In this document: positions 1 to 64,000 of the stretch, in pieces
Layout of the letters: each line of letters starts with the position of its first letter
How positions within the stretch are numbered: the stretch's first letter is position 1
Source of the DNA: Clavelina lepadiformis
Lineage: Eukaryota > Chordata > Ascidiacea > Aplousobranchia > Clavelinidae
DNA length: 64,000 bases
Direction of reading: 5' to 3'
NCBI RefSeq assembly: GCF_947623445.1
Contig: NC_135241.1
Span: 21,144,501 to 21,208,500 of the forward strand
Made by a program: the position numbers and the translations under genes
The notes under the pieces: model-generated
What the model was told of the DNA's origin: nothing
Databases searched by the model: none
The model's input: the letters and a program-made list of their open reading frames with translations, nothing else

Positions 1-66
1 GTACATTACATCACCGGAGGATGTTCAGAGTTCAGACAGCCGCATGTCGATAATGTCAAACCCTTA

Positions 67-1765
67 AGGCTGGTTTACACTGAAGGCAACGAAAGCGACA
101 CAAACTTTATTCCGTCAGATGCGCGAATAAAGATGGTTTACAATACGTGCGAAAGACGCAAACAAAATACTTATTTGTTGTTAAACGTAAGCGGCGTAAA
201 TCATAAGCCAAGTACCATACTGTAGGCTACAGTGGTAGACACAGGAAATGTATGAACTTTATAAAACTTCGAAATAAACGGCTTTGCGGAAAATATATAA
301 ACAAAGAAGGGATATTGTTTGCACTGCGGTTTATTTAAGCTAAGCTTAAACAGTAAAGTCAATTTGAGTTTATCCAATTTCGGTAAGGTGAGATAAATTT
401 GATGTGGCAGTATGACACAAGTTGTAGTATTGCCATAAAGGGGGTAGCTTTGTCTATATATCCAGACCGTGTACAGTCGTGCATTGTGTGTCACAGTCTT
501 TTGTGACTGCTTGTTAGTTGCTACTCCATTCTGTTGCCAGAAAGAATAGCTACGTCGTCCATTTTATCTCAGCATGTGAATATAAGCTGTGATACTAGCT
601 CTAGCACATCATTCATCAAATTGCAAAACACAAAACCACCCACATGCTGACAAGAAGGAAATTGATTGCAACAGCCAAGGTCTTGACTTTGCCTATCTAT
701 ATAAACTAGGTCAGGATGTCTATCACTGTCTTTTTGTGATAACTATCATATCCCACTAATATTACTATATTGCGAAATAAAATAGCTTTCTTCTGTTCAT
801 TTTCTGCGTAGGAATATAATCGGGTCTAATGCACAACCAAATGACGTCACAATTTGAGTAGCTGGGGTCTAAAATACAGATGCATCCTGTGCTTGTGCAC
901 TTCTACACTAGACCGACATAATCTACAGAGGTGGGCAGTCGGTACTTTGAAAGTACAGTCGGTAACGGCACCGGTACTTGGCAAAAAATATACCGACGGT
1001 TCCGATATTCGATACTATTTTTAAAAAGTAGTTCGGTACTCGGTACTTTTTGTGTAAAAGATGCTGCTGCAAATACCATGTTTGCTGCTAGTATGCCCCC
1101 GGCGAAGGTTACTCCAGGTCAAAACATATGTGACGTTAATCGCTTGCAATTGGACTTGACATTTCTAGATTAAAAAAGATCAACAGAAGCTAAAATTAGT
1201 ATTAAGGATTAATTACTTTAACATTTTTATTTGAAAATGTACCTGTTAAAATTTTGAAGTTATCACGTAAAAAGTACCGAGTATCGGGACCGACTGAAAT
1301 TTCTTGAAAAAAGTAATACGGTACAGAGATTCGGTTCTTTTTCTCAAAAATACCAACAGTATCGGTAGCGAAATAGTACCGCGGTACAGTAATTCGGTAC
1401 TATATGACCGCGGTACTGCCTACCTATGATAATCTATATACGACACCCTGCTTCGGAAGCCTATAGAACTATTTAATCCAACTTCGCCCTCTGAAATATA
1501 GGCTATTAGTCCTAAAATATAGTTGTAATTGCAAAACATTAGAATAATAACTGTGCATATAAAATGAAAACGCCTTGGCGGTCACATCGCTACGGCCTAA
1601 TAGCTTTCGATTTTCGCGCGAATCCGATCTCTGTTGCTCCTCCATCAACCCAGACGCGAAGCTCGTGAAGGCCAACGCGAAGTTTTGGGGAAGCTTCAAC
1701 GTTTCTTAAACAAACAAAGAAATTTCGCGTCGCTTGCTTCGATCGTGCTCAGTGTAAACGGGCCT
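67..1765. mobile_element. Harbinger-like non-autonomous DNA element, with a nested insertion
   Basis: The ends are inverted repeats: AGGCTGGTTTACACTGA at 67-83, and the reverse complement of 1749-1765 reads AGGCCCGTTTACACTGA (15 of 17 match). Both are flanked by TTA (64-66 and 1766-1768), a 3-bp target duplication typical of PIF/Harbinger elements. No transposase is visible, so it would be a non-autonomous copy. A hAT-type element lies inside at 926-1428; without it the host element is about 1.2 kb. The interior carries CG-containing words (gcgaag, cgcgaa) unlike the AT-rich flanks. The superfamily rests on termini and TSD only. Two separate elements sharing terminal motifs is the alternative. 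Confidence 0.55.
926..1428. mobile_element. hAT-type MITE with perfect 8-bp TSD
   Basis: A 503-bp element bounded by ATAATCTA at 918-925 and again at 1429-1436, a perfect 8-bp target duplication. Its ends are imperfect inverted repeats: CAGAGGTGGGCAGT on the left, and CATAGGTAGGCAGT as the reverse complement of the right end. The 8-bp duplication and the CAGNGGTGGGCAGT-like terminus are characteristic of hAT elements. Many copies of a short CGGTAC/GGTACT word cluster near both ends, as expected of subterminal transposase-binding repeats. There is no transposase gene. The clean TSD suggests a fairly recent insertion into the surrounding Harbinger-like element. Confidence 0.85.
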
Positions 1766-1768
1766 TTA

Positions 1769-2640
1769 TGCTACAGAAATAATCAAGCAAACAACACGGC
1801 AATTACCTTGCTCTTACGCGATCTGGTAACTAACACCAAGACAGCAAGACATTTTTTCTAAGACGCTGCAGTATTCCAAGACCAAAAATGCGGTTGCTCT
1901 TTGAAAGTGAAAAATGGTATTCAATAGACGCCCTATGTGACTGGCGCCAGTAACAAGAGATAATCTGCAAGAATCCGCTTCTGGAAAGGCATCGCTCTAT
2001 CCGTCAGAAAGGGAAGAAGAACAAACGTTATACATACTGAATATGTTATGGTGCTATGCTAGTATAGGCTAGAGATACTATCGTGGGAACCTGAAAAGAC
2101 TGTCCTTGCATTGGATTGCAAGCTGAAGGACTTGAGTAAATGACTTAGTAATTGAACAACTCTATGAGTGAACAGTAATTGTTAACTGAAACGTTATCGT
2201 AATTATTGCTTACAGATATCAATGCCAAGTGACGAGTGTATGTGAGCGTAAACAATATATCTTATACATTTGCTGCTGGCCGTATTCGTTTGTTCCAAAA
2301 GTCAGTAGGTTGCTGTAAGCGAAATTATACATTAAAACCCACGAAATAATGCTCTTCCTAAATGAGCCCATATCGCGCTAATTAGTCATCGTCGAGGCAA
2401 TCAATTGTGACAAAGACTTCAATCAACAACCAACAAAACAACTTGTAGTCACACAACCACACATTCTGTTGAATGTGCAGAAATGTTATAAATGGGATAA
2501 GACTAAATGTAAGGGCCTATGCCTATAATTACGACACAAGTAATTCGACTGCCGTTTAGTATTAACATATAAATAAAGGTTAATCGTTATGTAAATTGTC
2601 ACTTGGTAGGCCTTTGCTTTAAGAAATTAAGAATTGAACT
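1769..2640. other. Intergenic, nothing recognised
   Basis: No coding exon, RNA gene or clear repeat boundary was recognised here. Open frames are short and carry no domain signature. Confidence 0.5.
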
Positions 2641-2877
2641 TGACTTGATAAAAAATACATGACTCGACCCGACTAGCTTGGCTTTTCTTGGTAATAAATT
2701 TAAAGCGACTATTAGTTACTCGACTTGTGTTATAACCTTTAAGACTTGTTTCCATTAAAAAGAAACTAAAACTTGGACTTGATCAAAAATACATGACTCG
2801 ACTACCTTGGGAATAAATTTAAAGTGGCTGTTAGTGACTCCACTTGTGTTACAACCTTTAAGACTTGTTTCCATTAC
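2641..2877. repeat. Diverged tandem duplication of about 105-117 bp
   Basis: Two neighbouring units share the words TACATGACTCGAC, AATAAATTTAAAG and AACCTTTAAGACTTGTTTCC in the same order. Unit 1 is about 2641-2757 and unit 2 about 2773-2877. Unit 1 carries a few extra bases near 2670-2690. The divergence points to an old local duplication. No coding function is seen. Confidence 0.75.
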
Positions 2878-4147
2878 TATACTCTCAACTATACTGGAGT
2901 TATTTGAATAGAGGTCGCGACTGGTATTCTTTCTTTTAAAGAATTTTGTGGTACTTCTAAACGTGAGGAACTGTTTACGTAAGTAAGTATGTCTACGGCA
3001 TTTTTTTCTTTTTGCAATCTGGGTCAGACAAACGCTGCAATGCAGGTTAATCTTGTGCAAAGCTGTAGCCAAGGGAGATGGGATCATGTCCTCTTCAAAT
3101 CTTTAAATTACAGATTCCTATTTAAGTTTAAATTTTTGATAGAAAAGTGGTCATACGTTTCTATTATTACCAATATATTCCATAAAGGAAATAACTTGCC
3201 TAGTGGTCGAAAAAAGGAATACGCGGTATAGGCTTTAGGCTAGCCTATACTCTTAAAATCTTCTCAGATTATTTCCAATGATGGATTTGATTGGATAGGC
3301 TACCATATAGCAAAATATGTGCAAATTACGTGCACCAATGTAATTGGGTTTTAACAACTATCGTGGACTTGAACTTTTCGTTTTATCTAACAAAGGAATA
3401 ATATTAGTAGCGCCCATTTTGAGTCTCATAAATATTTCTCATATCAATTGAGAAGTGGACTTGTGCAAGGGAAGTGCTGTTCGGATATTTGTGAATAGGG
3501 TGATGGATGTATGGTTGTTGATTTCTTTTGCATCATATTATTATTGATCTTTGAATTGGTTAAAAGACAATTTTCTGCTCTTGGTTCTGTGGTGTGTCTC
3601 TGTTTTAATTGAGTTTAATTGTTTTAATTGAATCAATTAATTGTTAATTAATTGAGTTTTAGTTTTTTTTCTATCCGTTGTACTTTTTTTGTAATAAAAT
3701 CTGGGGCAACTGACCTGGATGACCGTGAGGTCTTTTCGCTGCCCCACACCAATCAATTGTGTTAAATTGTATTGTAATACTTTAGTTTTTACTTTGAATT
3801 GTGAAATAAATTCTCTCTCTCTCTCTTTTGTCGTTCGCTGCAACTATAATCGTTCGCTGCAACTATAACTACTATATAAACGAAAAGTTACTTCCAAAGA
3901 TCACTACGTAAACGCACGGTTACTTACCACCTTTGTGGTGCGAATTGGCTACACCTCTTTTTTTGTTGTATAATTATAGCTCGCGGCAGCTGGCGAGAAC
4001 TGATGTTGTTCATCTCCGCTACCATATCACAAAACTTGTGCTTTCGGTGTAAAAGCGTTTGTCTGTTATACTGGCAAGCTGCTTACTGAAAAAGTTACTC
4101 TATTATTGACGTCAAACATTCTGGAGATTGTGTGTAAAATTTCTGTC
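2878..4147. other. Intergenic AT-rich stretch with a TC microsatellite
   Basis: No gene was recognised. Around 3605-3660 there is a run of TTAATTG/CAATTAA words with dyad symmetry. At about 3813-3828 there is a (TC)n microsatellite directly after an AATAAA at 3805-3810. Immediately after it, an 18-19-bp word (TCGTTCGCTGCAACTATA) occurs twice in tandem at 3831-3868. The AATAAA followed by a simple repeat could mark the 3' end of an old retroposed sequence, but no reverse transcriptase is visible. Confidence 0.45.
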
Positions 4148-6073: not shown

Positions 6074-10558
<4,485 letters not shown>

Positions 10559-48702: not shown

Positions 48703-50631
48703 CTACGGCTTCAACTGCAACCCTTCAAGACTTTTATTTGCAGCTTCTGCATCAAAGTCTTTATCGGTGAACAACTCAACCCAAACAGGACAGTGATCGG
48801 AAGCCACACCACCCCACCTCCAACCATCAGGAATCCACGGGTTCGTTAATCCATTACGTACAACTTGATATGCTCCAGTGTATAACTTTGCGGCACTGTC
48901 ACTCAGCCATATATTATCATAGCACCGTGATCCTTTCATGTTTTTGGAACTAATGTTGGTTGGAACAGTTTCACGGACAATGGATTTGAACGATTGATTT
49001 CTCAAGATATCAAAATCGGCCTTGTTTGGTTCTAGATTAAAATCGCCCAAAATCACCAGGTCTTTTTCTTCTGGAACCTTCTTCTTTAAAGCTTCTACTA
49101 ACAATTGTAGATTGCGTATTTCTTTATTTAACCGTTCCAAATCAGTCTCAGACCCAACATGACCCACTGCTTTAAGATGAACACTTACAAGTACAACATC
49201 CATTTTCAAAATCTGCAAACAATATAACAGCTACATTACTATTTGCATCGTAGCATTTGGACAAATTAAATGTAACAGTTCAAAACTCTGTGCAATAATT
49301 CTGATTTAAATGCTAAAATTGCTACTATAGATATACCTTAAAATATCCCAGAAAAGGACATCTTACGAAATCTCTTCCATTTGCTGTTTTCTCTAGTAAG
49401 CTGCTGCTGTATAAGTTTATGCTGGCTGCTGAATCCCAGATAAATCCATTGTACTCTGCAGACTGATACATCCTTCCCGCAGGCTTTCTTGATGCCATGC
49501 ACCGCCATAAACCAGAGTTTCCTTTTAGCCTGCAAAAAAACTGCAAATTGATGAGTCAAATTTACAACATATCTTATATACCACTTTTAACTTATGTTAT
49601 AGTTAATTTTTCAAAACCCGAACCACAGAGCATAACTCCTTATAAACATGCCTTTGAATGTTGGGTAAAGTTGGACTGTTTAATTCATCAACAATTTCTT
49701 GAAGGGCCTCTGCATCAGACAATTCCTGTACCACAAGAATCTTAATCCCAGTTTCCAGAATGGTTGCACAAACTACTTCACGCACTCCAGGATTTTGAAC
49801 TTTTTCAAGGCCAAACTGTTGAAGATTCCAAGTTCCAATACGAATGATAGGGCGACCGCTCTTGGTGCTGTTAAATGACTCAACTCTTGCACGATGCGAC
49901 TCAATTGACTCTGGGCCTATTCCAAAAGAAATATTAGATGCAGTATTCCTGACAATTGATGAAGCCGAACTTGCATTTCTTGAATGCTTTCCAGAGTTTT
50001 TACTGATAGCCAAAAATCCCTTAATTTTAAGAAGAGTGTGAACATCAATAAGACCAGAAGGTTCAACCAAATCATTTATGTGATGAAATGAACCATTTGT
50101 ATTTCTATAGTTAACAATTTTGGCAGCCAGCTCATCAGAAATCCCTTCAATATTAGAGAATTGAGCAGCCGAAGCAGAGTTGATATCAACAATCACACTG
50201 GAATTAGATTCACTGTTGTGCAACAAGGACTTGGCAGCATTTGCAGTACTGGTGGAAACATGAATTTCTTTTCTTAATTTTTCAAGTTTGGTGGCTCCAA
50301 TGCCGCTGACAAGAGCCAAATCTTCAACTCTCCGAAAACAACCAATTTGTTTCCGATATTCCACAATATTGTGTGCTATAACTCTTCCGATCATTGGAAG
50401 TGTCATCAAATCTTCTTCCGTGGCTGTATTGATATCTAACGTGCTGAAAATTGTTGGCAGTGGTGTGGCATGAGTTTTAGATAGAGGCACAACTTCAGAT
50501 GGATTGTTCGGTTCATAACTAAATGCTGCACTGATACTTGTACGTCGATGCAAGATACTTCCATGATGTTTGATGGTTGAGTTTCGATCTTTTGGAACTT
50601 GTGGTCGACAGCAAGTGCACAGCCCCCCCAT
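48703..50631 (-). CDS. EEPD1: EEPD1: HhH plus endonuclease/exonuclease/phosphatase domain protein, complete
   Basis: In vertebrates EEPD1 is a 5' endonuclease acting at stalled replication forks. Exons on the minus strand are 50631-49648, 49540-49337 and 49212-48703, giving 565 aa (human 569). The N-terminus MGGLCTCC has a myristoylation-type Gly2 and neighbouring cysteines. Two helix-hairpin-helix units follow, each opened by the same motif (LDINTATEEDLMTLP and VDINSASAAQFSNIEG). The nuclease domain has GTWNLQQFGLEK, NPGVREVVC, VVQELSD, VILGDFNLEP, TNISSKNMKGS, GLTNPWIPDGW and ASDHCPVWVEL. GDFN and SDH are the canonical metal and catalytic motifs of DNase I-like enzymes. Exon 2 has two adjacent acceptors (TTTGCAG at 49541 and a second 11 bp downstream); only the upstream one keeps the frame. 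Confidence 0.95.
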
Positions 50632-51194
50632 TTTGACCTGAATTATCTGATGGTGTTTAAGACATTATACTATACTTTGGTTGGCTATGAAAAACACAAA
50701 ATGCAATTATGGATGCTGTTATGCAGTAAATAAATTAAACAAGTACATGGCCCAAATAAACTTTAAATGCAACAAAGTGAAATAGATCAACAAACTTCAA
50801 CAGCCTAAGCTGTTTTTGAAATTATCGACTAACTATTTGTACTCTTTCTTGTCTAATAAACAGAAAATGGAAGAGGAAAGTAAATGTCTCCTTGTTTAGC
50901 GATTGCACATTTTCCCAAAGTTGACATTCGGTTGTACAGCACAGTTTTTAAAAGCCTTGAGGGTGCAGTTGCCATGCTTCACACTATGGCTACGGGACCC
51001 TATATGACTGGCTGTGGCTTCACTACTTCATGCTTAAGGAAGTATGAACATAAATCAACGAAACTAAAAAATACAGCATGAAATGGTTACATACCTTTTA
51101 CGCCTTGTTCAAACGTATTACAAATTTCGATGGTCAGATGGTAGCAGCAATTGTGGGTATCTAACAGTAATCAAAGTTAAGTTAAACGTGCACG
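50632..51194. other. EEPD1 upstream region
   Basis: No exon was recognised. The stretch 50950-50996 (GTGCAGTTGCCATGCTTCAC and onward) matches the right end of repeat family R, so a truncated copy lies here. EEPD1 promoter elements should lie just above 50631 but none is distinct. Confidence 0.45.
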
Positions 51195-51640
51195 TTTATG
51201 AGCCTCCCGACTGGAAAGTATGGCAATTTTTGACGAGAATTCATGCAAGTAGAGACGCAAACTTTTGGTCGATAGCGTGCACTGAAGCCTCAATTCTTTG
51301 CTTATTTATTATAAATTGACATTCAAACAACCAGCTTAGCTCAGTTCAAACAATTGACCTTAGTGACCTAGGCTATGGTTTTGATTGACACTCACCCTAC
51401 TGGATAAAAATTTTTCTTTTCAAGACAAGTTTTCGACAAGAAATCATGCGTGCAACAATGCAAAGTTTGGCCTTTAGACTGATGCGTCAAATCTATATTT
51501 ATTTATTACAAATTGGCGTTCAAAGGACCAGCTTTTGTTTAATTTTTATAATTCGGCATGAAGATAAAATAAGTTCAGTGTGTACATTGATGAATCTGGT
51601 GCTTGCAGTTGCCACACTTTGCACTATGGAGACGACGACA
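51195..51640 (+). repeat. Dispersed repeat family R, copies 3 and 4 in tandem
   Basis: Copy 3 (about 51195-51345) has CCCGACTGGAAAGTATGGC, GTGCACTGAAGCC and TTATTTATTATAAATTGAC. Copy 4 (about 51420-51640) has TTTCGACAAGAAATCATGCG, TTATTACAAATTGGCGTTCA, GAAGATAAAA and GCAGTTGCCACACTTTGCAC. They are head to tail with about 75 bp between them. Copy 3 is missing its right part. Confidence 0.65.
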
Positions 51641-52026
51641 CTACGCAATTCAAAAACACTTTCGTTTCTAATATTTAACGATCCCTACACTGCAAAAAAA
51701 AATGCCTTATTGTTAGGTTGAAAAAAAAGTGGCTATTTTGTCCTCGTTTTTCGGCTGTATGTTATCCACAATCGAGGCTAGTTATAAGCCGTTAAAAGAT
51801 TGCTAATAGTAAGCGCCTTTCGTTTGCCTAACAGTTAGTTTAAAAACTGGCTGACCCGTAGTTCTGCTAATGCTGTCCTTAAGCCAAAAATATCCTAATA
51901 GCAATCCATAATTTTCTTTTCTTAGCGCTTAGGTAAATACACTTTTTAATAATAAGCCAGTTTTATTTTGCAGTACGTTTTCAAAATGAGAATATGCAAT
52001 GGCCAGAAACAACTTTTAAACAAACA

Positions 52027-53582
52027 TCAATCAAAAAGATTTTGATACACTTTCTGAGTTGGCCGTTTTCCAATGCCAAAAACGTGAAACTCAAGCAAAC
52101 GATACAAAGATGAAGCTTGTGTTGGATACTCATAATCAAATACAAAGTACACAGAAAACAACATCAAAATACATTCAAAGCATGAAACTTTACCGATTGG
52201 AATGTACGATTGATTATTGATCATTAAACAACAGTTACCAGGAAATTCTGGAACACCCATACACATTATAAATGGTTGTTGACGAGATTTATCTTTTATG
52301 TCTAGTAAACATCCATTACTGTCAAACACAATGACATACTTTGAGCCTGCAGAACAGACTTTCTCTGCCAGCCTTTGAAAAACGACATAGCTCCCCTTTT
52401 CTAAGCCTTCTTCTACAAACGAGACGCCAAGAGATGATAGAAAGCTGGACCATCGAAAGGAACAGTTGGAACGGAACTCTTCGTAGCCCTGACTAACTAA
52501 AGCAGCGTATTCCTTGATACACTGCAGAGTAAAATAAAGCAATCAATGAGTAAGATATAAAATTCTTCAACACCTTACTGCCACGTGTAACACATCTTAT
52601 GCCAATTTACCTCAATCGGATGAACGCAATATTGCGAGTATTTTTGAAAGATAACATCAACGTCATTTCTCTTCGCCAGATGACGAATTTCCATCAGTCG
52701 ATGCTCACGATTGGATTCCCAATCATCGGCAGCTCTCTTTCTCTTTCTGCTCTTGCCAAGTTGTACTTGCAGTACCCGATTCATCATCGCTTTTTGATTG
52801 TCCGCTCTTTTGCGGACGGCTAAATCAAGAGCTACCCACGGCTTCTCTCCACCGCATCCCAAAACCGGATACTCCTTTACAATGTTTTTTGATATTAATT
52901 TTCGCTCAGCCCTCTCTGTTTTGCGGCCCAAAGTAACAGATATTATTTCTTCAATACGTTTCACAAGGTATATAAACTGAGAGGCCTGGAGGTTATTTTT
53001 GGTTACAGTGTTAAGAAATTCTTTTTCCACGCCTGAGAACGGAAATTCACTTCCTAGCCCTCCTGGATAAGGTACCAATTGATAGGGTGGAATGGAACAG
53101 CAGCTTGAAGACACCTTGTTAAACGCATGGGAGCCAGTCGGTGCATGAGAGATGGATTGGTTGGAAGACACGTCTTCGCTATTGGTGGATACATTCAAGC
53201 TTATATCACTATCGTTTGCTGACGCGAACGAAAAGGATGTGGACGGTTCATCGGTGTCATCTTCAAGAAGGGTAGGCATACCTTCAGAAATTGCACATGG
53301 TATGCTGTCAAGATCTTGAGTTTCGGTCTGGATAAAACAAACAGTTAACCGTTATTAACCAGCTGTATTTATACAAAAAACTATGTCACTGCATCGTAAA
53401 ACATTAATTAAAAATATTATACGCACCGAATGAAATAACATTTCAGCAAGGAAATTCATTAATCGTGTTCTTTCTCCAAAAGATAATGTGACAAACTCTT
53501 CTTTAACGATAGCATGTGTGAGTGGCAAGTCAGCAACTTGTAATCCACTCTCTAAAAAATAGTCGCCATTTGTTAAAAACAC
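52027..53582 (-). CDS. Accessory (ORF1, SAMD3-like) protein of the two-gene transposon
   Basis: Exons on the minus strand are 53582-53427, 53327-52611 and 52521-52027, all in phase; the true start lies further up (the first exon has an acceptor at its left) and was not identified. The product has an acidic Ser-rich linker (DDTDEPSTSFSF region), then a helical segment VEKEFLNTVTKNNLQASQF, then AERKLISKNIVKEYPVLGCG. A basic KSRKRKR patch and FQKYSQYCVHPIE follow, then a C-terminal region PFIMCMGVP...YFVFDYEYPTQASSLYRLLEF. That order is familiar from fish proteins found beside C2H2-type transposases. Role unknown; DNA binding or assembly with the transposase is a guess. It runs divergently from the transposase with about 1.2 kb between. 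Confidence 0.65.
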
Positions 53583-54809
53583 CTGACATACAGGAAACTA
53601 ACATCATAGGCTAAATACATCGAAATAACCCTTTCAAATTAGATATAGTTCGCTAAAAATTGAAACTTGGCGAAATTCGGAAAAGTTTTAAAGTTTTATT
53701 TAATCAAAAAATAAATTATTACCAAAAATTTGTAATTATAATTATATATTCCTATAGGAATTTTTGGCGTTGGGTTATGGCAAAGAAACGTAAATAATAA
53801 GCCGCAAGCCTATTCCAAAGCACTTAAGACACTACATTATGTTCTAAAATTAACACCACGGGAGGTCAAAGTATAGCTCTGTTTCCTTTCGAAACTAAGC
53901 AAAGGTTAGATAACTTGTAAAACCTAACATTTTATACCAAACGCGGGAAAAAGGTTTAAAATAAAAATGCACGTCATTGCATTGGAGTTGGGCACCGCCA
54001 TTGATGTAACGCGCATTGAAAATAAGTCCAGATGCTTTCTTGTATCGTAACCTAACCGCGTGAAAGTTTACATCGTAGAACTGTTATAATACATAGTAGC
54101 TCGTTTTAAAAGTAAATTGTGGAATTTGCACAGTTGGCAGTATGCTATGCTTAAAAATCCTTAGAAATAGCCGAAGATGCCTTACTGGTAGTGCCACATG
54201 TTGATCTGATGCCAAGACATTGTCACGCAACAATATAAGGAAACCAGCGTTTTAGAGCGAAAATGACATTTCATAAAGCTGGCGTTAAAGGGCATCAATG
54301 CAATAGGAGTTATTTTACGCAATTATTAGGCTATAAATTATACAATTATTATAAATCGAAACAACCAACAAAAGCTAAATCAAAGTGGTTTGGATATACG
54401 TAACATTTCATTCAAGAACAGCCTATGTTTCATATCTATACTTTCTCATTTTGTTCATAATAGCATACAGGAGGGTTTCAATTGCAGCATACCTTTCAAA
54501 GCATCCACAATATTTTCAGATAAGCCATACTTGGCCGCTTCTTCTGCAAGATAACCCATCACCCGACTTGTACAGTGGCGAAGATAAAAAGACAGAGACA
54601 AGTGCGGACATGACAAATAATACCACAATCTTTTTTCTTAGCCATTATGACGTTTGAATGCATAAGTCTCGGTTCTCTTTTTCCGGCAATAACTGAAATG
54701 AGCTTTGGTAAAAAAGAAAAGAAAATGAACCGTGCTAGCGTTGCTAAACTGAAAGGTATTGGACCTTAGACCACACTGTAGTAAAGTGTAGAAAGAATTA
54801 TAGTAAAAT

Positions 54810-57800
54810 ATGTTCTTGTGCCATGTTTGTCGCGGCAAAGGTTCTTGCGAATTCGCTTTTGAAAGTAGCACCCTATACATGCGACACATAAGAAGAGCAC
54901 ATAAAGACATCACTGATAGCTGTTTCCGGATTATTTGCCAAATTGACGGTTGTCCTAAAGAGTTTCACAGTTATGCTGGTTATGTGAAACACCGATGGCG
55001 CAATCACAAAAGTCAAAGTTCTGCTGCTGAGGAACCCATTTTGTCAGAAACAGATCCCTTGTTATTCCAGAGCACAAACAACTGCGAACCTAATGACCAC
55101 AACTCTTTAGAAGAAGAGTTAGTGCAGCAGCATGTACCTGAAGCCACCAAGGAAAGTGACGACTTGGAAACATTACAGACTGAAAGTGAGCTTCAAGTAT
55201 TCCATTTGCAATCGCGACACAATTTAACGCAGGTAAGGAAAATAATTTATACCAAACCTACCATATATGTATGTATATATATATATACATATATATACTG
55301 TATATAAATGCATATACTGTATATATAAAAGCAAATTTAACTTCAAGTTCGTTCCTAGATGTATGTTTTTGGCAATTTTGTCAGGGTTATTTTAGTGGTT
55401 GAAATTTCAATGCTAAGTACAGTACTTTCACATATTATGTGGCTTTGTTGTAACTTAATGCGATAAGTTGGAACGCAGTGGATTGTGGATTGCCATTGGG
55501 TAATTAGGCTGCTTTCTTCACTGAATGATGATTGAAAGCAAATTGCTGTCGACGTTAAGTTTCTGTTATTTAAGTTAACATTAACTCCAACCAAAATTTT
55601 CATATAAAAAGTGGTTAATAGCCTATTGGAGATTGCAGTAGTAGCCTATGTCCGAGACATTTACTAATGGTACACTCTAAAAAAAAACTGACTCTTTGGT
55701 GACTCAAAGATCCTCCCTTACTTTGAAAGAGTCGACGTATCTGACTCTTTTGAAAGTAACACTTGCTCACTCGTGATAAGAGTGACGGTCACTCTTATAA
55801 CAAGTGACACACAACTGACTCTTTGGTGACTCAAAGATCCACCCTCTCTTTGAAAGAGTGAACGACATCTGACTCTTTTCAAAGTAACAAAACTTCACTG
55901 ACGTTCACTCTATATAAAAGGTAGAATAGCAGCCAGCTTCCAAATTTTATGCAGTGGAATTTATTACTCACATGACTTCAGCGAATTTTAATTTCACTTC
56001 ACTTAAAAATGCACTTTGAAAACTCAATCTACAGTATCACCAATACATGCAGTGTTTTGCACACCATTGATGGCAGCAAGAACAGTTTTAACTGAGCACA
56101 CTGGGGTTTTGTTTATAACCAGCACTTCAAGAAGATTGTAGAATGGTGCAAGTCTGGGGTAGTAGGAGATATTACATACCCAAAACGAAGAGAACAAGCG
56201 GTACAAAGCACGCACCACGTCATTTCCAACATAAATGACAGAAAAATCGGCAACAATGTAATATTGATCAGGTTGGGTGCTGTTGCCCACGGCTAAAAGA
56301 AATGGTCGAGTCAGTCCAGAATCTTTGTGGACGGCAAAGTTTGTTGGGTCCGTGCCGGCCTAAAATTTAAAGTTCAAAAATTATTTCAATACAGCAAGGT
56401 GTTAAAAATTACACGTTGTCATGCGAACACAAACCGCCACTATCACTTACCCCAGCAAATTGAAAAATAGCATGCGATTGTGACTGACAACCCTTTCTGC
56501 GGAAGTTTAATGGCGGAAGCAACTTTTCCAGCATGTGAATTGTGTGAAGTTTGTCTGCATAGAAAATAAAAACTGAAGCCAGTGAAAAAGCAAACGACTT
56601 ACTTACACAACAATCAGAAAAGGAAATCGTGTTTAGTGCAGAAGAACATGAGCACAATAAAATTATCAAGGTTGTATAGCTTCGTGAATTAATCAATATA
56701 TAATTAATTGACCATATGGAATATAATGTAACCAAAAAACCAGATGTAAGCAATTTGCAACAACAGTACATGACGTATAGAAAGCCATGACTCCAGAACT
56801 GTCATCTTTTTGTTGAGAGTCAGTTTCAAAATCCTAGCACGTTAACCTTACGCCAAAGTAGAAAGTTGCTTGCTTACTCTCAGTTATGTTGCTTGATGTT
56901 ATATTCTTCAGACGTTGTTGAGATCATTGCTTTTCCAGTTACAGTCAAAAGAACAGGAAAACATATCAAATAGCTATAATATAAATCCAACAAATGCAGG
57001 AGCTAAAATGATGCTGTGAAAAATTGAAAAATTAATGATCATTAAATTGTAATTTTGAATTGAAAAATAGCGTTTCATTTCAATTGGCGGCCTAGCTTAG
57101 TAATTTAATCATGAAAAGTAAGACTTTGGGTGAGAAGGGATTAGTTTTAGGTTAATTTACGGACAAATTAGTGCGTTGTTTTAAGTTGAAAATTAGCGTA
57201 TATTTCAATTTACTGAATAGCGAAATTCCAGTTAACCATGTTCGTCTTTTTTAACTTCGGTAAACGGCGGCCGGTAAAATACGTCTCTACTGCACAGGCT
57301 GCCATTTACTAAGTAGGAAAACACTAATTGCGTAACCGGCTAGCTATTCACCAATATGGCTTTTTCAAAACTCGGCAACCTGCAGCGAAACATTAACGCT
57401 ATGTTAACAAGAAGCTGCGATAATTAACTTTGAACTATTAATTTTTTCTGGTGAAATAGTGGCAGCCAAAGTAAAATCTGCTAACGTCAGCTAGTCACTT
57501 TTTCCACATTACTACCAAATTTAGTACAAAAAGATACAACATTTTATATTGCAAGCAATGAGCCTGTAAGACTATAAGTAGTTAAAACCTATAAACAGAC
57601 CAAAATAGACTTAATACAAATTTGCCTACCTTGCAGCAAATGTTCAGTTTCTTCAGATATGTTTAAATTTTTCGTTAAATACTCACATAGCCTAGTTGCA
57701 CAACTGAAAATTGTATGTCAAAACCGTCAAACTCCATCTAGCAATAAAGTACAGATAAAGATTTTCTTTTAAAACTTTATGGGCCTAGCTTCCAAAACAA

Positions 57801-60036
57801 CAAAAAACTCTGTTTAGCTTGAGGCCTTTGCAGCACGATTTCTGGTGAAAAGTTACGGTAGTTTCCTGTCTGGTTGGTAGGCCTATACTTCATTTTTAGG
57901 CTACACACAAATAGGGCTACCTATTTTTCAAATAGCTATATAAGCTAGGTTTTCATCAACGCTTGCTGTTAGTTTTAATTTATCTTCAAAGTTAAATGAC
58001 CTAGCTCAGTCTACTGAAATCATTATGCCCAGAGGTTAAACCTATTTGCGGTTCGCCTATTCGTTCACCACACGTTAACTTGCACAGGCCCAACGGTATA
58101 CCATACCATACCAGGCCACGTGCAACAGACAGACAACCTAGGTCCTAGATGTAACAATTTGGTAAAAATTTCCATTGCGTAATACGCTGCAAGCCATCCG
58201 TGACGACACCACTCAAATAAAGAGTCACACAAGCAAAAAAATACGAGAGAAGGCAGAAAAAGTAGAATCGACTCTTGAAAGAGTCAGAATCCGTTCTCTC
58301 TTTCAAACGAGTGGAAAAACTGACTCAAGTTTTTTTAGAGTGTAATCACGTCACAGTTATTTAAAATCCACTATCGTAATTATAGTATCCTTTCTGCAAG
58401 CTTTACATCTTTTACTTTTTCGCAGGTAGCGGTGGATGATATTGTACAAATGATGAAAAGGCATGAAGAGGAAATGTGGACAAGGATAAAAACTCTAGTA
58501 TCTGATTCGTCACTTCTTCACAATTTGTCCGCCAAAATTTATCCCTTTCAGCATCGTTTTGATAGACTGGGAAATGCATATAGCAGAAGGCAGGTTTTTG
58601 AACAAAATATAGATTTTTGTCAGCCTCAGGAAGTAATTGTTGGATTTACTACCAAAACCCAAGGATGTCGTGATAACCGAAGCCTTGAACGTCATCCAAG
58701 ATCCATTCAATACATTTCTTTACGGAACACAATCAGACTTTTAATTAACAATATATCGTTCTGTAAAATGGTGAAAAACTATGACGGCATGAAAACGTCA
58801 ATGACACGAGATAACCGGGATCAATATTTAAGAGATTTCTGTGATGGCCAAGTTCTTCAAAATCACCCTTTGTTTACTTCTTCGCCCACAGCTTTGCAGC
58901 TGTTACTTTACTTTGACGATCTGGAATTGTGCAATCCACTTGGTAGCAAATCCCGAAAACATAAAATATCAGTTTTTTATGTTTCATTTGGAAATATAAA
59001 TCCTATTTATCGCTCACGGTTGGCCAATATCTTTTTGTTAGCAATAGCTCATACATCAGACGTGGTGAAGTTCGGAATAGACAAAGTTTTATCAACATTT
59101 TATGAAGAATTGGAAATTTTATCTGACAAGGGTTTTGAAGTTCAATTAAAAAAAGGTGGAGTCATAAATGTGAAAGGATCGTTGCTTGCAGTTATCAGCG
59201 ACACCCTCGCAGCGCACCAAATTACAGGTTTTAAAGAAGGTGTAGGGTTTGCAAAACAGAAATGTCGGCATTGTTTGTGCAATTTTGATGACATGCAGCG
59301 GATGTTTTTTGAAAGCAATTTTAAGTTACGGTCCTTGCAAACTCACGTAAATATTCACTGCAAAAATATCTGCAGAAAATCCTCCACTGAATTTGGAGTA
59401 AATAGATTGTCATCTTTGTTTAAGGTGCCGTATTTCAATCCGTTCCATTGCGTTCCACAAGATCCGATGCACGTAATTCTTGAGGGTTGCTTACCTTATG
59501 TCATGAAACATCTTCTGAATTATTACGTTAATATCAAAAAATATTTCACCATCGAACAGTTCAATGAAAAACTTGAGAAGTTTCCATACTCATACATGGA
59601 CAGACGCAAGAAACCAAGCAATCTGGATAGTAGTCATCTCGAGAAAGATGGAAGTTTGAGACAATCTGCTTCTCAGATGTGGCTTCTCGGCCGCCTTCTT
59701 CCTTTTTTTGTTTATGAGTGGGTGGATATGACATCTGTGCATTGGGGGTGTTTTGTGACATTACTTGAAATCATGTCTACAGTTTTTTCACCATGTGTAT
59801 CTCAATCTCAAATAGCTCTTCTGCGTTGGAAAATTGCTTATCACTTAGATTTATTTAGGCAAAGCTTCCCTGGGGTAAACATAATACCAAAGCAACACTA
59901 TCTTCTTCATTTACCATCGGACATATCCAGGCTTGGACCAAGTATGCATTTTTGGTGCATGAGATATGAAGGAAAACATTCTTTTTTAAAACAATTAACC
60001 AAGATTGCTAATTTTAAAAACATATGTAAATACATG
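54810..60036 (+). CDS. C2H2 zinc-finger/RNase-H-like transposase of the two-gene element, interrupted at its 3' end
   Basis: Exon 1 is 54810-55232 and exon 2 runs from 58426 to at least 60036, joined in phase (678 residues visible). Exon 1 encodes two Cys2His2 units: the MFLCHVCRGKG...HIRRAH stretch, and CQIDGCPKEFHSY followed by KHRWRNH. Exon 2 has ISVFYVSFGNINPIYRSRL, LLAVISDTLAAHQITGFKEG, a cysteine cluster (KCRHCLC), VPQDPMHVILEGCLPYVMKH and MRYEGKHSFLK. The Asp of ISDT, the Asp of QDPMH and the Glu of RYEGKH are candidates for an RNase-H-fold DDE triad. The frame continues KNICKYM and stops being transposase exactly where a hAT element begins, so the C-terminus is displaced. The 3.2-kb intron is long mainly because of the insertion at 55673-58342. 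Confidence 0.75.
55673..58342. mobile_element. Nested DNA element with CACTCTAAAAAAA inverted ends and subterminal repeats
   Basis: The left end CACTCTAAAAAAA at 55673 is inverted at the right end (TTTTTTTAGAGTG, ending 58342), and both are flanked by TA. A roughly 127-bp unit beginning CTGACTCTTTGGTGACTCAA is repeated directly at 55688 and 55815. GACTCTT/AAGAGTC words recur at both ends, as in CACTA-type subterminal arrays. The minus strand carries an ORF1-like coding remnant at 56024-56555. No transposase was recognised, so it would be non-autonomous. It lies wholly within the intron of the host element's transposase gene, so it may be spliced out. Confidence 0.75.
56024..56555 (-). pseudogene. 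ORF1-type accessory protein remnant in the nested element
   Basis: Two minus-strand exons appear. One is about 56555-56447 (LEKLLPPLNFRRKGCQSQSH) and the other about 56361-56024, including PFLLAVGNSTQPDQYYIVAD and RALYRLFSSFWVCNISYYP up to a stop at 56024. The order 'PF(L/I)...; (A/C)xxxLF...; (Y/F)P' matches the C-terminus of the ORF1 protein at 52027-52521, though the two are very different in residue identity. Upstream exons were not found, so it is partial. It suggests that the nested element is a relative of the host element, of a different family. Confidence 0.5.
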
Positions 60037-62279
60037 CAGGGCCGGATTAAGACGAAACTGGGCCTGATGCTGCAGCGCAAAAACAGGCCTATTTTTTCTA
60101 GGCATTGGTACATATGCATTCGACACTCTGACTCCACCGTACACGCGTAATCAGACCGACCAAAGAGCCTTTATTGCTTTCGACGCAGTCAGCCAAATTT
60201 TAATGAACATGAACAATAATAACGACGTGTTATCGTAAAAACTCGAGAGTAACATCAGGCTATGTAACACCAACACAATTCAATACCAATATTGCCTGAA
60301 AAGCGGAGTTAATGAAGAAAAGGCTAATCCAGATCAACTTAACGTTGGCATATTGTCAATGCTGCGCTAGTGCTGCTTACTTATACTACTGTTTTTCGAG
60401 CCTTAGCAAGCGCGAAATCTTCGATCATGTCAGTGCAGTCAAGGCTGCTCAGCACCTCATGTTCAATGCTCATAAGCGCCAGCATGTTTAGCCTTTCCTC
60501 CCTCATCGAGGACCGCAGCTCTCCTTTGACTATTCCCAGTTTTGAGAAGCTCCGCTCGCCGGAGGCATTAGACACCATCAAGCACAGATAGATGCGCAAA
60601 GCAATCTCGACGTTTGGAAATGTTTGAGAAAGGTTCAACGACGACAAAAGCTTGTACATGGTAAGCTCTGCTGACTCGTTCACACTCACCGATTTCTGGG
60701 TGCGCATAAATGCAGCAAACTGTATGAGCTCAGCCACCAGCGTGTCTTCCAAGTCATCTGGATACGAGGAAACGAGATTTTGAGCTTTATTCTCGATCTG
60801 CTTTATGCTCAATGACGTTAGCTCCGAAAGAAATCCGAATGTTGTAGATATATCCTCATACGCCTTCATTCGCTTTTCCAGTTCAGCTAACAGTCTGTCG
60901 ATCATGACCAGATATATATGGGTTTTGAATGTTTCCCTAGGGGTGAGGTTTTCTTCGTTTGCAGCTCCTTCATCAGGCATTCGCTTTCGCTTACGGCCTC
61001 GACGTTCTTCAGCCTTGTATTCGCCGTGAGGAACCTTTTCGATCGCCATCTGCTCATACACGTCAAATCTGTCCCGTGCAAATTGAATCGTGTCGACCAG
61101 TGATGCCAATAAACTAGTTGCCGTATTCAGACTGACTGTAGGGTCTTGGAGGCTAATGCTCGTACTGTTGAGACGGCATAGGATATCGTTCCAGGCAGTC
61201 GCCATAACTGCTGTCTCAAGTTCGTCCATCCTGCGCGAAAATCCGTCGGCCTGGTTTCTCGTATCGGCCTTCTGCTCCTTATCTGCCGCAAGCTCATCCA
61301 GGACTTCTTGAATGCTCTTCCACCCTTCTACTAGCGCTTTGACAGCATCTGCACGTTCACACCATCGGGTTCCAGACAAACCTTTGAGCGTTAATGTGCA
61401 GCGATTCTTCAGTTTCTGCCAGCGATATGTCGATTCAGACAGGAAAACGTATAGTCCATTGACAAAATGAAAAAACCTGGTACAGCCAGCGCAGCTATTA
61501 ACAGCCTGGTCTCCTACCAGGTTTAAACTGTGGTTGCAGCATGGAATAAAAGCAGCATATTTACATTCTCGCTTCACAATTGCCTGGACACCGTTGTACC
61601 GTCCTGACATGTTTGACGCATTGTCATACGACTGGCCTCTGCAGTTAGTAACATCCAAGCCATTTTCCTTCAGAAAGTTCAGAAGTATGCTAGCCATGTG
61701 CGTAGCGGTGTGTCTCATCATAGGCAAGAATGTCAGGAACCGTTCAACTGGACCCAACGGCAGAACATATCGAATAACAATCGTTAGCTGGTCGAGGTGT
61801 GATACGTCAGGTGTAGAGTCAATCGAGACAGAGAAATACTTCGCCTTCTTGGCTTCTTTCAGGATGGTGTCCTGCACCTTTTGTCCCATGAGCTGCACCA
61901 GCTCCTCGCAAATTGTGGATGACAAATAAGAAATGTGACCTTTCCCGCAGTTCGCATATTTTCTAATATGGCTAGCCAGCAGAGTATCGTACTCCGCCAA
62001 CAACTCAATGATGCCAAGGTAGTTACCATTATGAGGGGAACCTATGATCTCATCCGCGCCCCTTATAGCAAGGCCACGCTTAGCTAGGAATATCAGAACG
62101 TCGATGAGCCGCTTTACAATCTGGCGCCAGTAACACCGCTCTTCCTCGACCTGTTTAGCGGCTAGGTAGTCAACACGACCGGCCTCCCTCTGTCGGCTCG
62201 CAAAAGACAACATAGCCTTGCGATGACCATCGCTTGGTTTTACAATAGTTCCGGGTAGTGAACAATCGTCACGGCCCTA
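60037..62279 (-). mobile_element. hAT element, ZMYM1-like, copy 1
   Basis: Begins at CAGGGCCGGATTAAGACG (60037), a typical hAT terminus, exactly where the host transposase frame is interrupted. The transposase is on the minus strand. The right limit is set at 62279, where the sequence changes to a ZBED-type fragment. The last bases (CGGCCCTA) could pair with the left end, but they also lie in an open frame continuous with the transposase, so the right side may be a truncation. The 8 bp before the element (AATACATG) are not repeated after 62279, so no target duplication is visible. Confidence 0.75.
60381..62213 (-). CDS. hAT transposase, ZMYM1/TTF-type, 610 aa, N-terminally short
   Basis: Cut-and-paste transposase of the hAT superfamily. 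Motifs in order: FSVSIDSTPDVSHLDQLTIV (first catalytic Asp region), DVTNCRGQSYDNASNMSGRY (second Asp region), then FIPCCNHSLNLVG with the C..H signature. A basic RRGRKRKR nuclear signal follows in mid-protein. At the end is the dimerisation region, LRIYLCLMVSNASGERSFSK (catalytic Glu context) followed by LNMLALMSIEHEVL. The frame is intact. Relatives usually start with a TTF-type zinc finger and a longer N-terminus; here the open frame runs only about 66 nt upstream of the first ATG before a stop at the element limit, so the DNA-binding part is missing. Confidence 0.85.
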   Translation of the reverse strand: MLSFASRQREAGRVDYLAAKQVEEERCYWRQIVKRLIDVLIFLAKRGLAIRGADEIIGSPHNGNYLGIIELLAEYDTLLASHIRKYANCGKGHISYLSSTICEELVQLMGQKVQDTILKEAKKAKYFSVSIDSTPDVSHLDQLTIVIRYVLPLGPVERFLTFLPMMRHTATHMASILLNFLKENGLDVTNCRGQSYDNASNMSGRYNGVQAIVKRECKYAAFIPCCNHSLNLVGDQAVNSCAGCTRFFHFVNGLYVFLSESTYRWQKLKNRCTLTLKGLSGTRWCERADAVKALVEGWKSIQEVLDELAADKEQKADTRNQADGFSRRMDELETAVMATAWNDILCRLNSTSISLQDPTVSLNTATSLLASLVDTIQFARDRFDVYEQMAIEKVPHGEYKAEERRGRKRKRMPDEGAANEENLTPRETFKTHIYLVMIDRLLAELEKRMKAYEDISTTFGFLSELTSLSIKQIENKAQNLVSSYPDDLEDTLVAELIQFAAFMRTQKSVSVNESAELTMYKLLSSLNLSQTFPNVEIALRIYLCLMVSNASGERSFSKLGIVKGELRSSMREERLNMLALMSIEHEVLSSLDCTDMIEDFALAKARKTVV

Positions 62280-62280
62280 A

Positions 62281-62602
62281 TGTTTGGTGTGCTCCCAAAT
62301 TCTGCCAAATGACGTTATGAAACCTTCTAAAGTTGTTCGTCACTTTCATTCAAAGCACAACAATCTTGAAGGCAAGCCACTTGAATATTTTGGACGAATA
62401 TTCTCTGATATGAACGATTAAAAAAAGCAAATGAAAAGATGACGACTACCGAAAAATCCTTTCTTCATGAATCCTATCTAGTTTCTCTACGAATAGTTAA
62501 AACCAAAAAAAGCATACACGATTGGGGAAGAGTTAATAAAGCCGTGCATCTTATCTGCGGCTGAAGTAATGAAGGGCCCTGAAACAGCTCGAAAAGTGTT
62601 AT
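62281..62602 (+). pseudogene. Broken ZBED-type hAT transposase fragment
   Basis: The plus strand reads CLVCSQILPNDVMKPSKVV, then RHFHSKHNNLEGKPLEYFGR. This is a BED zinc finger (C..C and H..H) with the MKPSK and KPLEYF motifs typical of ZBED5/FAM200-like hAT transposases. After a stop, the next conserved segment appears in other frames: FLHESYLVSLRIVKTKKSIH, then, after a frame change, TIGEELIKPCILSAAEVMKG. So it carries at least one stop and one frameshift and stops at 62602, far short of the full length. It belongs to a different hAT family and strand from the flanking copies. Confidence 0.8.
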
Positions 62603-62682
62603 AATTTTTCATCTTAAATAAGTAGTCTATGCCAAAATCTTGCTTTATCTTACGTGCCTAGGCGTAACACTGTGCCTAGGCG
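62603..62682. repeat. Spacer with an 11-bp direct repeat next to hAT copy 2
   Basis: GTGCCTAGGCG occurs at 62654-62664 and again at 62672-62682, the second directly abutting the left terminus of hAT copy 2. Each contains the palindrome GCCTAGGC. It may be the subterminal part of an older hAT element, as such words are common in hAT ends, or the join of a tandem duplication. Confidence 0.5.
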
Positions 62683-64000
62683 CAGGGCCGGATTAAGACG
62701 AAACTGGGCCTGATGCTGCAGCGCAAAAACAGGCCTATTTTTTCTAGGCATTGGTACATATGCATTCGACACTCTGACTCCACCGTACACGCGTAATCAG
62801 ACCGACCAAAGAGCCTTTATTGCTTTCGACGCAGTCAGCCAAATTTTAATGAACATGAACAATAATAACGACGTGTTATCGTAAAAACTCGAGAGTAACA
62901 TCAGGCTATGTAACACCAACACAATTCAATACCAATATTGCCTGAAAAGCGGAGTTAATGAAGAAAAGGCTAATCCAGATCAACTTAACGTTGGCATATT
63001 GTCAATGCTGCGCTAGTGCTGCTTACTTATACTACTGTTTTTCGAGCCTTAGCAAGCGCGAAATCTTCGATCATGTCAGTGCAGTCAAGGCTGCTCAGCA
63101 CCTCATGTTCAATGCTCATAAGCGCCAGCATGTTTAGCCTTTCCTCCCTCATCGAGGACCGCAGCTCTCCTTTGACTATTCCCAGTTTTGAGAAGCTCCG
63201 CTCGCCGGAGGCATTAGACACCATCAAGCACAGATAGATGCGCAAAGCAATCTCGACGTTTGGAAATGTTTGAGAAAGGTTCAACGACGACAAAAGCTTG
63301 TACATGGTAAGCTCTGCTGACTCGTTCACACTCACCGATTTCTGGGTGCGCATAAATGCAGCAAACTGTATGAGCTCAGCCACCAGCGTGTCTTCCAAGT
63401 CATCTGGATACGAGGAAACGAGATTTTGAGCTTTATTCTCGATCTGCTTTATGCTCAATGACGTTAGCTCCGAAAGAAATCCGAATGTTGTAGATATATC
63501 CTCATACGCCTTCATTCGCTTTTCCAGTTCAGCTAACAGTCTGTCGATCATGACCAGATATATATGGGTTTTGAATGTTTCCCTAGGGGTGAGGTTTTCT
63601 TCGTTTGCAGCTCCTTCATCAGGCATTCGCTTTCGCTTACGGCCTCGACGTTCTTCAGCCTTGTATTCGCCGTGAGGAACCTTTTCGATCGCCATCTGCT
63701 CATACACGTCAAATCTGTCCCGTGCAAATTGAATCGTGTCGACCAGTGATGCCAATAAACTAGTTGCCGTATTCAGACTGACTGTAGGGTCTTGGAGGCT
63801 AATGCTCGTACTGTTGAGACGGCATAGGATATCGTTCCAGGCAGTCGCCATAACTGCTGTCTCAAGTTCGTCCATCCTGCGCGAAAATCCGTCGGCCTGG
63901 TTTCTCGTATCGGCCTTCTGCTCCTTATCTGCCGCAAGCTCATCCAGGACTTCTTGAATGCTCTTCCACCCTTCTACTAGCGCTTTGACAGCATCTGCAC
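62683..64000 (-). mobile_element. hAT element, ZMYM1-like, copy 2 (runs off the window)
   Basis: By eye identical to 60037-61354 at a constant offset of 2646 bp, starting at the same terminal base CAGGGCC. It includes the transposase C-terminal part at 63027-64000 on the minus strand (282 residues from an internal Met, identical to copy 1). The bases before it (CCTAGGCG) differ from those before copy 1 (AATACATG). The lack of visible differences means a very recent event, a tandem duplication, or an assembly duplication. Confidence 0.85.
63027..64000 (-). CDS. hAT transposase, copy 2, partial at window edge
   Basis: C-terminal part of the same transposase as at 60381-62213, with the RRGRKRKR nuclear signal and the SNASGERSFSKLG dimerisation motif. 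The remainder lies beyond the window. Its stop codon at 63027 corresponds to 60381 in copy 1. Confidence 0.85.
   Translation of the reverse strand, partial: ADAVKALVEGWKSIQEVLDELAADKEQKADTRNQADGFSRRMDELETAVMATAWNDILCRLNSTSISLQDPTVSLNTATSLLASLVDTIQFARDRFDVYEQMAIEKVPHGEYKAEERRGRKRKRMPDEGAANEENLTPRETFKTHIYLVMIDRLLAELEKRMKAYEDISTTFGFLSELTSLSIKQIENKAQNLVSSYPDDLEDTLVAELIQFAAFMRTQKSVSVNESAELTMYKLLSSLNLSQTFPNVEIALRIYLCLMVSNASGERSFSKLGIVKGELRSSMREERLNMLALMSIEHEVLSSLDCTDMIEDFALAKARKTVV

Follow-up and report, generated by a model that had tools for sequence, protein, structure and literature searches.

A divergent two-gene CACTA-type transposon in the ascidian Clavelina lepadiformis with a candidate accessory protein

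The window analyzed here is a 64,000-nucleotide stretch of the Clavelina lepadiformis genome (NCBI RefSeq assembly GCF_947623445.1, contig NC_135241.1, positions 21,144,501 to 21,208,500 of the forward strand). From position 51688 it carries a DNA transposon, family A below, with two genes: a DDE transposase with C2H2-like fingers and a second open reading frame, ORF1. The reading preferred, with a probability of roughly 0.6, is that of an animal transposon of the CACTA/EnSpm type (CMC clade) in which ORF1 is an accessory protein resembling TNPA in its role. In plant CACTA elements, as passages of PMC8195511 and PMC1636069 describe, the transposase is TNPD, and the subterminal repeats are bound by a second protein, TnpA.

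Copies, ends and target sites

A search of the genome (209 Mb in 95 contigs) with transposase exon DNA gave family A in three near-identical copies, in the window, at C2:15.70 Mb and at C5:16.04 Mb, and a related family, B, in two. The copies on contigs C2 and C5 were read whole and are complete. In each of the three family-A copies that this search returned (3/3), ORF1 and the transposase gene lie between the same CACTGCAAAAA...TTTTTGCAGTG ends. The alignment of the C2 and C5 copies with the window begins at 51687/51688, skips from 55672 to 58342 and breaks off at 60036. Position 51688 is the left end of the element, a terminus common to the two other complete copies, whose flanks are unrelated. 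An initial annotation, made from the letters of the window, had proposed one DNA transposon with two genes and a terminus at 51688, and the complete copies bear out both points. The outcome named there as refuting the proposal, ORF1 and the transposase each in an element of its own with unlike ends, or a 51688 terminus not common to them, is the reverse of what these copies show, and family B has the pair too. ORF1 and the transposase as chance neighbours are ruled out by complete copies holding both.

The left end is CACTGCAAAAAAAAATGCCTTATTGTTAG, and the right end is its inverse with 1 mismatch in 29. The annotated element had been stopped at 60036; it continues after a hAT insertion to window-equivalent position 66843, outside the window, where its right end lies. 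The proposed search for full copies defined this end together with a target-site duplication (TSD) of 2 bp, which is CA in the C2 copy, TG in the C5 copy and TA in the window copy. The TSD is perfect in 8 of the 10 family-A copies with both ends read and imperfect at C4:23.62 (TA/TG) and C8:7.12 (CA/AC); in 3 of the 10 (C3, C5:0.36 and C9) the ends are 7-11 kb apart and were taken as those of one interrupted element. A pyrimidine-purine (YR) step stands at 11/11 left flanks and 12/13 right flanks read for this family. Near-identical copies at different sites imply recent movement, which would be of the cut-and-paste kind. The comparisons behind the ends, derivatives and repeats took the C5 copy with 3 extra bases on the left and 1 on the right and the C2 copy with 3 extra bases on the right; the true lengths are 6852 bp (C5) and 6848 bp (C2). 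The features of the window copy are as follows.

51686..51687, no strand: TSD, TA, on the left side (its right-hand counterpart lies at window-equivalent 66844-66845)
51688..60036, plus strand: family-A element up to the hAT cut, nested element included (remainder beyond the hAT, to window-equivalent 66843)
51688..51716, plus strand: 29-nt inverted repeat at the left terminus, with a single mismatch to its partner at the right
52027..52521, minus strand: ORF1 exon 4 with stop codon
52611..53327, minus strand: ORF1 exon 3
53427..53551, minus strand: ORF1 exon 2
54493..54559, minus strand: ORF1 exon 1, containing the start codon; family B has a homologue of this exon
54560..54809, no strand: 250-bp stretch between the start codons, presumed two-way promoter
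54810..55232, plus strand: transposase exon 1 with two C2H2-like fingers (zf-C2H2 E=0.021, below cut-off)
55673-58342, no strand: CACT-ended element of family C, nested within the intron of the transposase gene and foreign to the outer element, with TA duplicated at 55671-55672 and 58343-58344
58426..60036, plus strand: second transposase exon, which encodes the D, D, C(2)C, H(3)H and E motifs and is cut downstream of them by the hAT
60037..64000, minus strand: hAT element, on to window-equivalent 65668, foreign to the outer element

ORF1 has four GT-AG exons on the minus strand, from 54559 to 52027, encoding 467 aa. Its frame is intact in the window copy and in C2, and in C5 it ends early, after 406 aa. 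The transposase is 830 aa long in both C2 and C5; C2 thus has an open frame for each of the two proteins. Exon borders of both genes are predictions from the sequence, backed by the family-B homologue. In the window both genes are undamaged to the hAT cut, as had been claimed, with ORF1 open over its 467 aa and the transposase exons open to 60036. A shared control region of 1.2 kb is not supported, the start codons at 54559 (minus strand) and 54810 (plus strand) being 250 bp apart.

Class of the transposase

The transposase motifs are D304, D400, C421xxC424, H632xxxH636 and E656. Families A and D have a DDE core in which the C(2)C and H(3-4)H motifs fall between the second D and the last E, and these residues are invariant in the alignment of A with B. 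Because D..D..C(2)C..H(3)H..E marks the CACTA/Mirage/Chapaev/Transib clade, the transposase is, judged by its sequence, CACTA/EnSpm-like (CMC clade) rather than of the Kyakuja-Dileera-Zisupton (KDZ) type. Of the features of this clade, CAC..GTG (CA..TG) inverted-repeat termini are present (one family-B copy has an altered first base), with CACTG or CACTC ends across the families, and the TSD of 2 bp falls within the 2-5 bp of the clade. The family-D transposase scored 27.4 bits against DUF4218, just above the cut-off of 27.0, and matched the Plavaka model under the cut-off (E=7.8e-5). The CACTA link that had been suspected from the ends is thus backed by the ends, the 2-bp TSD, the transposase motifs and the Pfam matches of sister families, family A itself having no Pfam match.

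A KDZ-type transposon is scarcely credible. KDZ had been named for comparison in the initial annotation, and Plavaka, whose model the family-D transposase matches, was once placed near KDZ; but Plavaka has since been moved to the EnSpm side and Zisupton makes 8-bp duplications, according to the parts of PMC12730594 consulted, whereas the element here has CACTG ends and duplicates 2 bp. No 8-bp TSD was found for this element, and the class is rejected on the 2-bp TSD and the motifs.

Comparison of the family-A transposase with PDB by sequence and profile gave chance matches and no relative, Pfam and NCBIfam scans with single exons gave nothing useful, and a PF02992 search of the organism's own genome found no match, the control being equally without one. 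Among the transposase matches listed, 19 of 80 reach the last query residues (to 603); these reflect a hAT tail left in the query and were set aside. Many broken transposase relatives (~30-50% amino acid identity) crowd one end of contig C4 (0.8-3.4 Mb), which suggests a transposon graveyard there.

Related families with a second gene

Family B is represented by two copies, 99% identical, with CACTGTAAAAA ends and the divergent layout of family A. The TSD is TA in one copy; the other, with the altered first base, has no clear duplication. Identity between A and B is 159/448 residues (35.5%) in ORF1 and 293/555 residues (52.8%) in the transposase core, and the three ORF1 introns match in position and phase. 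Synonymous sites are saturated, with proportions of differing synonymous sites (pS) of 0.75 for ORF1 and 0.80 for the transposase, and of nonsynonymous sites (pN) of 0.46 and 0.32. Both B copies are damaged: in copy c8 a stop codon interrupts the second exon of ORF1, and the B transposase is spread over more than one frame. A stretch beside another ORF1 site is a family-B fragment without a transposase match.

In family D, the copy read (C1:6446328-6454506, 8179 bp) has CACTG ends and a CA duplication (n=1). Its transposase ORF lies at L076:6074-8536 (33% identical), and ORF1-like ORFs follow downstream on the same strand, in tandem. Two further D copies (C6, C7) have the transposase, the region preceding it and the C-terminal exon at 99-100%. 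The tandem gene is probably a relative of ORF1: the sequence matches are weak singly (see below), and order, strand and place agree. The divergent layout holds in A and B and fails as a general rule, the second gene in D being tandem. A second gene accompanies the transposase in two families of this genome, and probably in a third.

Subterminal repeats and deletion derivatives

Subterminal repeats were found at the ends of four families (A, B, C and D). Motif A, CTTATTGTTAGT, counted on both strands, has 6 terminal sites and 1 internal site, motif B, CTAATTATTAGTC, has 13 and 1, and motif C, CTGACTCTTTNAA, has 7 and 0. In 200 trials with resampled ends, no more than 2 sites were obtained for these motifs. 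In family D, GTGTTTA occurs 8 times in the left 263 bp, 8 times in the right 200 bp and once between (counted without resampling).

Eight of the 16 family-A right-end matches start at one internal point. Three loci crossing this junction have element positions 1-3012 joined to 6586-6856 (~3.26 kb); they retain ORF1 and have lost the transposase. Because they have the same ends, copies with ORF1 and without the transposase are, on sequence grounds, deletion derivatives, and such transposase-less derivatives have reached several copies. Private changes in the family-A derivatives number 40, 30 and 38 at codon positions 1-3 (456, 455 and 456 sites), and 127/1634 in noncoding DNA; this count took ORF1 exon 2 as 31 bp too long at its start, in the correct frame. 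The second gene's final exon survives in many family-D relatives (at least 82 matches), and a stop codon is common to 4 of the 5 derivative exons read. Selection keeping ORF1 in transposase-less derivatives is not supported, given the lack of codon-position bias (A) and the common stop (D, 4/5). Such copies therefore do not need ORF1 in cis; this fits trans-acting proteins but taken alone is no proof of a need for ORF1.

These derivatives bear on the possibility that ORF1 is a dispensable passenger or remnant retained through linkage, which is judged quite improbable. ORF1-broken copies such as the C5 copy, the absence of constraint on ORF1 between the C2 and C5 copies, and derivatives that evolve without codon bias, 4/5 of the family-D exons with the common stop, would all fit it. 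Proteins acting in trans account for broken copies equally well, however, and the ORF1 frame and introns have been kept from A to B despite saturated synonymous sites.

The C5 copy differs from the C2 copy chiefly at element positions 1500-3000 and matches ORF1-only derivatives at 30 of 41 diagnostic sites, perhaps by gene conversion between full and deleted copies.

Proposed role of ORF1

In plants, the movement of CACTA elements depends on two proteins. The transposase here would cut the ends and insert them with a 2-bp stagger, its fingers recognising the ends and its DDE core cutting and joining at a 2-bp YR site. ORF1 would bind the family-specific subterminal repeats and help to pair the two ends, and may also regulate the promoter between the genes. 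Both proteins would act in trans, moving deletion derivatives as well. By analogy, ORF1 most likely works like plant TNPA in binding subterminal repeats; "works like" is used rather than "is" because ORF1 is not detectably related to TNPA.

A number of results weigh against this proposal. Spliced ORF1 of A and B matched no Pfam family at E<=10, including Transposase_24 of TNPA, and sequence searches of PDB gave chance matches and no relative. The family-A transposase likewise matched no Pfam family at E<=10, and the family-B core matched Transposase_21 at E=1.2e-4 and 21.8 bits, under the cut-off of 28.6. Between the C2 and C5 copies, the nonsynonymous (dN) and synonymous (dS) rates are 0.016 and 0.015 for ORF1, showing no constraint over that short span (for the transposase, 0.003 and 0.010). 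Motif A has 5 of its 6 terminal sites at the right end and only 1 at the left, and the repeat motifs were derived from the same ends in which they were counted. The likeness of the family-D gene to ORF1 is weak, at E=0.23 among 212 ORFs for a KRYPSL..KPWV stretch and E=0.077 among 1737 ORFs for the C-terminal domain, the next chance match being at 0.17.

It is also conceivable, and judged unlikely, that ORF1 stays outside the cutting complex and protects the CACTA element, e.g., by relieving promoter silencing or countering host defence. ORF1 has its own divergent gene adjoining the transposase, and plant TNPA acts on its promoter too, as described in a passage of PMC1636069. Against this, ORF1 bears no sequence sign of a chromatin or defence function and has no Pfam match, and the subterminal repeats are left unexplained, though the transposase fingers could bind them.

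ORF1 had been labelled SAMD3-like, a likeness judged by eye. The label found no backing, since neither spliced ORF1 nor the three single exon frames scanned matched any Pfam family at E<=10. No SAM family appeared at E<=10 for spliced ORF1 of A and B, nor for a 48-aa family-D exon. Single-sequence AlphaFold models had mean pLDDT (a per-residue confidence score) values of 34.3 and 45.3, too low for use, and a search of viral contigs confirmed no relatives. Among the papers listed in PMC full-text searches, none is a description of this ORF1 to judge by title and abstract; an earlier description is possible, Repbase Reports and most subscription papers being outside this search. In PMC full texts, SAMD3 is mentioned together with transposon in 6 papers, once in each, and these are on other subjects by title.

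Later insertions and neighbouring features

Two elements that inserted later interrupt the window copy, one of 2670 bp with CACT ends and the hAT. The former, at 55673-58342, was overlooked in the initial annotation; it is a separate element with its own ends, CACTCTAAAAAA, and TA duplication, and the C2 and C5 copies show an empty site there. It has five full-length copies, three at 100% (rounded) with the window copy among these; the searches used 55673-58341, one base short of the end. Its ORF at 56027-56359 (minus strand) is similar to the C-terminal part of ORF1, at E=8e-4 in a set of 1055 ORFs. In a longer family-C copy, L063, a C2H2 pair (zf-C2H2 E=1.3e-4) stands directly before ORF1-like exons on the same strand, and tblastn with the family-A transposase matched the finger part alone; judged by eye, ORF1 may have taken on a transposase-type head there. 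That copy would contain yet another insertion at L063:4268-5120, where ORFs resemble, by eye, a PHD finger and a transposase of the pogo type. The hAT spans 60037-65668 (5632 bp), cuts the outer element at 60036/60037 with an 8-bp duplication, AATACATG, and has an ORF at 60384-62276 (minus strand) that is open across 631 aa and matches Dimer_Tnp_hAT and DUF4371.

Dispersed repeat units lie directly left of the element at 50964-51634 (a 57-nt pair is 81% alike) and also beside family-B copy c5b. A gene with HHH domains, which we take to be EEPD1-like, lies at 49606-50664.

Relation to known systems

Plant En/Spm elements, in the parts of PMC8195511 and PMC1636069 consulted, share with the element here CAC..GTG ends, subterminal repeats, two proteins and transposase-less derivatives. 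The repeats stand at both ends here too, with 1/6 sites at the left in family A, and the transposase is likewise of the Transposase_21 kind, weakly and in family B only. The plant elements differ in their 3-bp TSD, against 2 bp here, and in having one alternatively spliced unit, against divergent genes with separate starts (tandem in D); moreover, ORF1 of A and B has no detectable TNPA likeness by Transposase_24. Animal TRC elements (SmTRC1), as described in passages of PMC1636069, also have 2-bp direct repeats at their ends, and their D-X-M-H-X3 motif and CXXC are found here as well; their ends begin with CCC, against CACTG or CACTC, and their short proteins PrA and PrB are in no other TRC element by that account, whereas ORF1 recurs across families. 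Members of the CMCT clade (Plavaka, ESTA, Transib), in the parts of PMC12730594 consulted, share C(2)C and H(3-4)H after the second D and before the last E, CA..TG ends and a TSD of 2-5 bp. Plavaka differs in its TGT..ACA or CATCA..TGATG ends, and ESTA duplicates TA; the element here is placed at the level of the CMCT clade, not of a branch.

Whether animal CACTA elements have a dedicated helper is little treated in the literature searched. The defined ends, 2-bp target and candidate binding sites make a helper role of ORF1 testable. A wider proposal is speculative and rather doubtful: ORF1 would be a helper family of animal CACTA elements, unrelated to TNPA, that travels with the C2H2-DDE transposase, changes its head (SAM-like or C2H2) and place (divergent or tandem) and reads the subterminal repeats of each family, and SAMD3-type host genes would be tamed copies of it. 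The element provides a definite candidate against which a transposon origin of SAMD3-type host genes can be examined.

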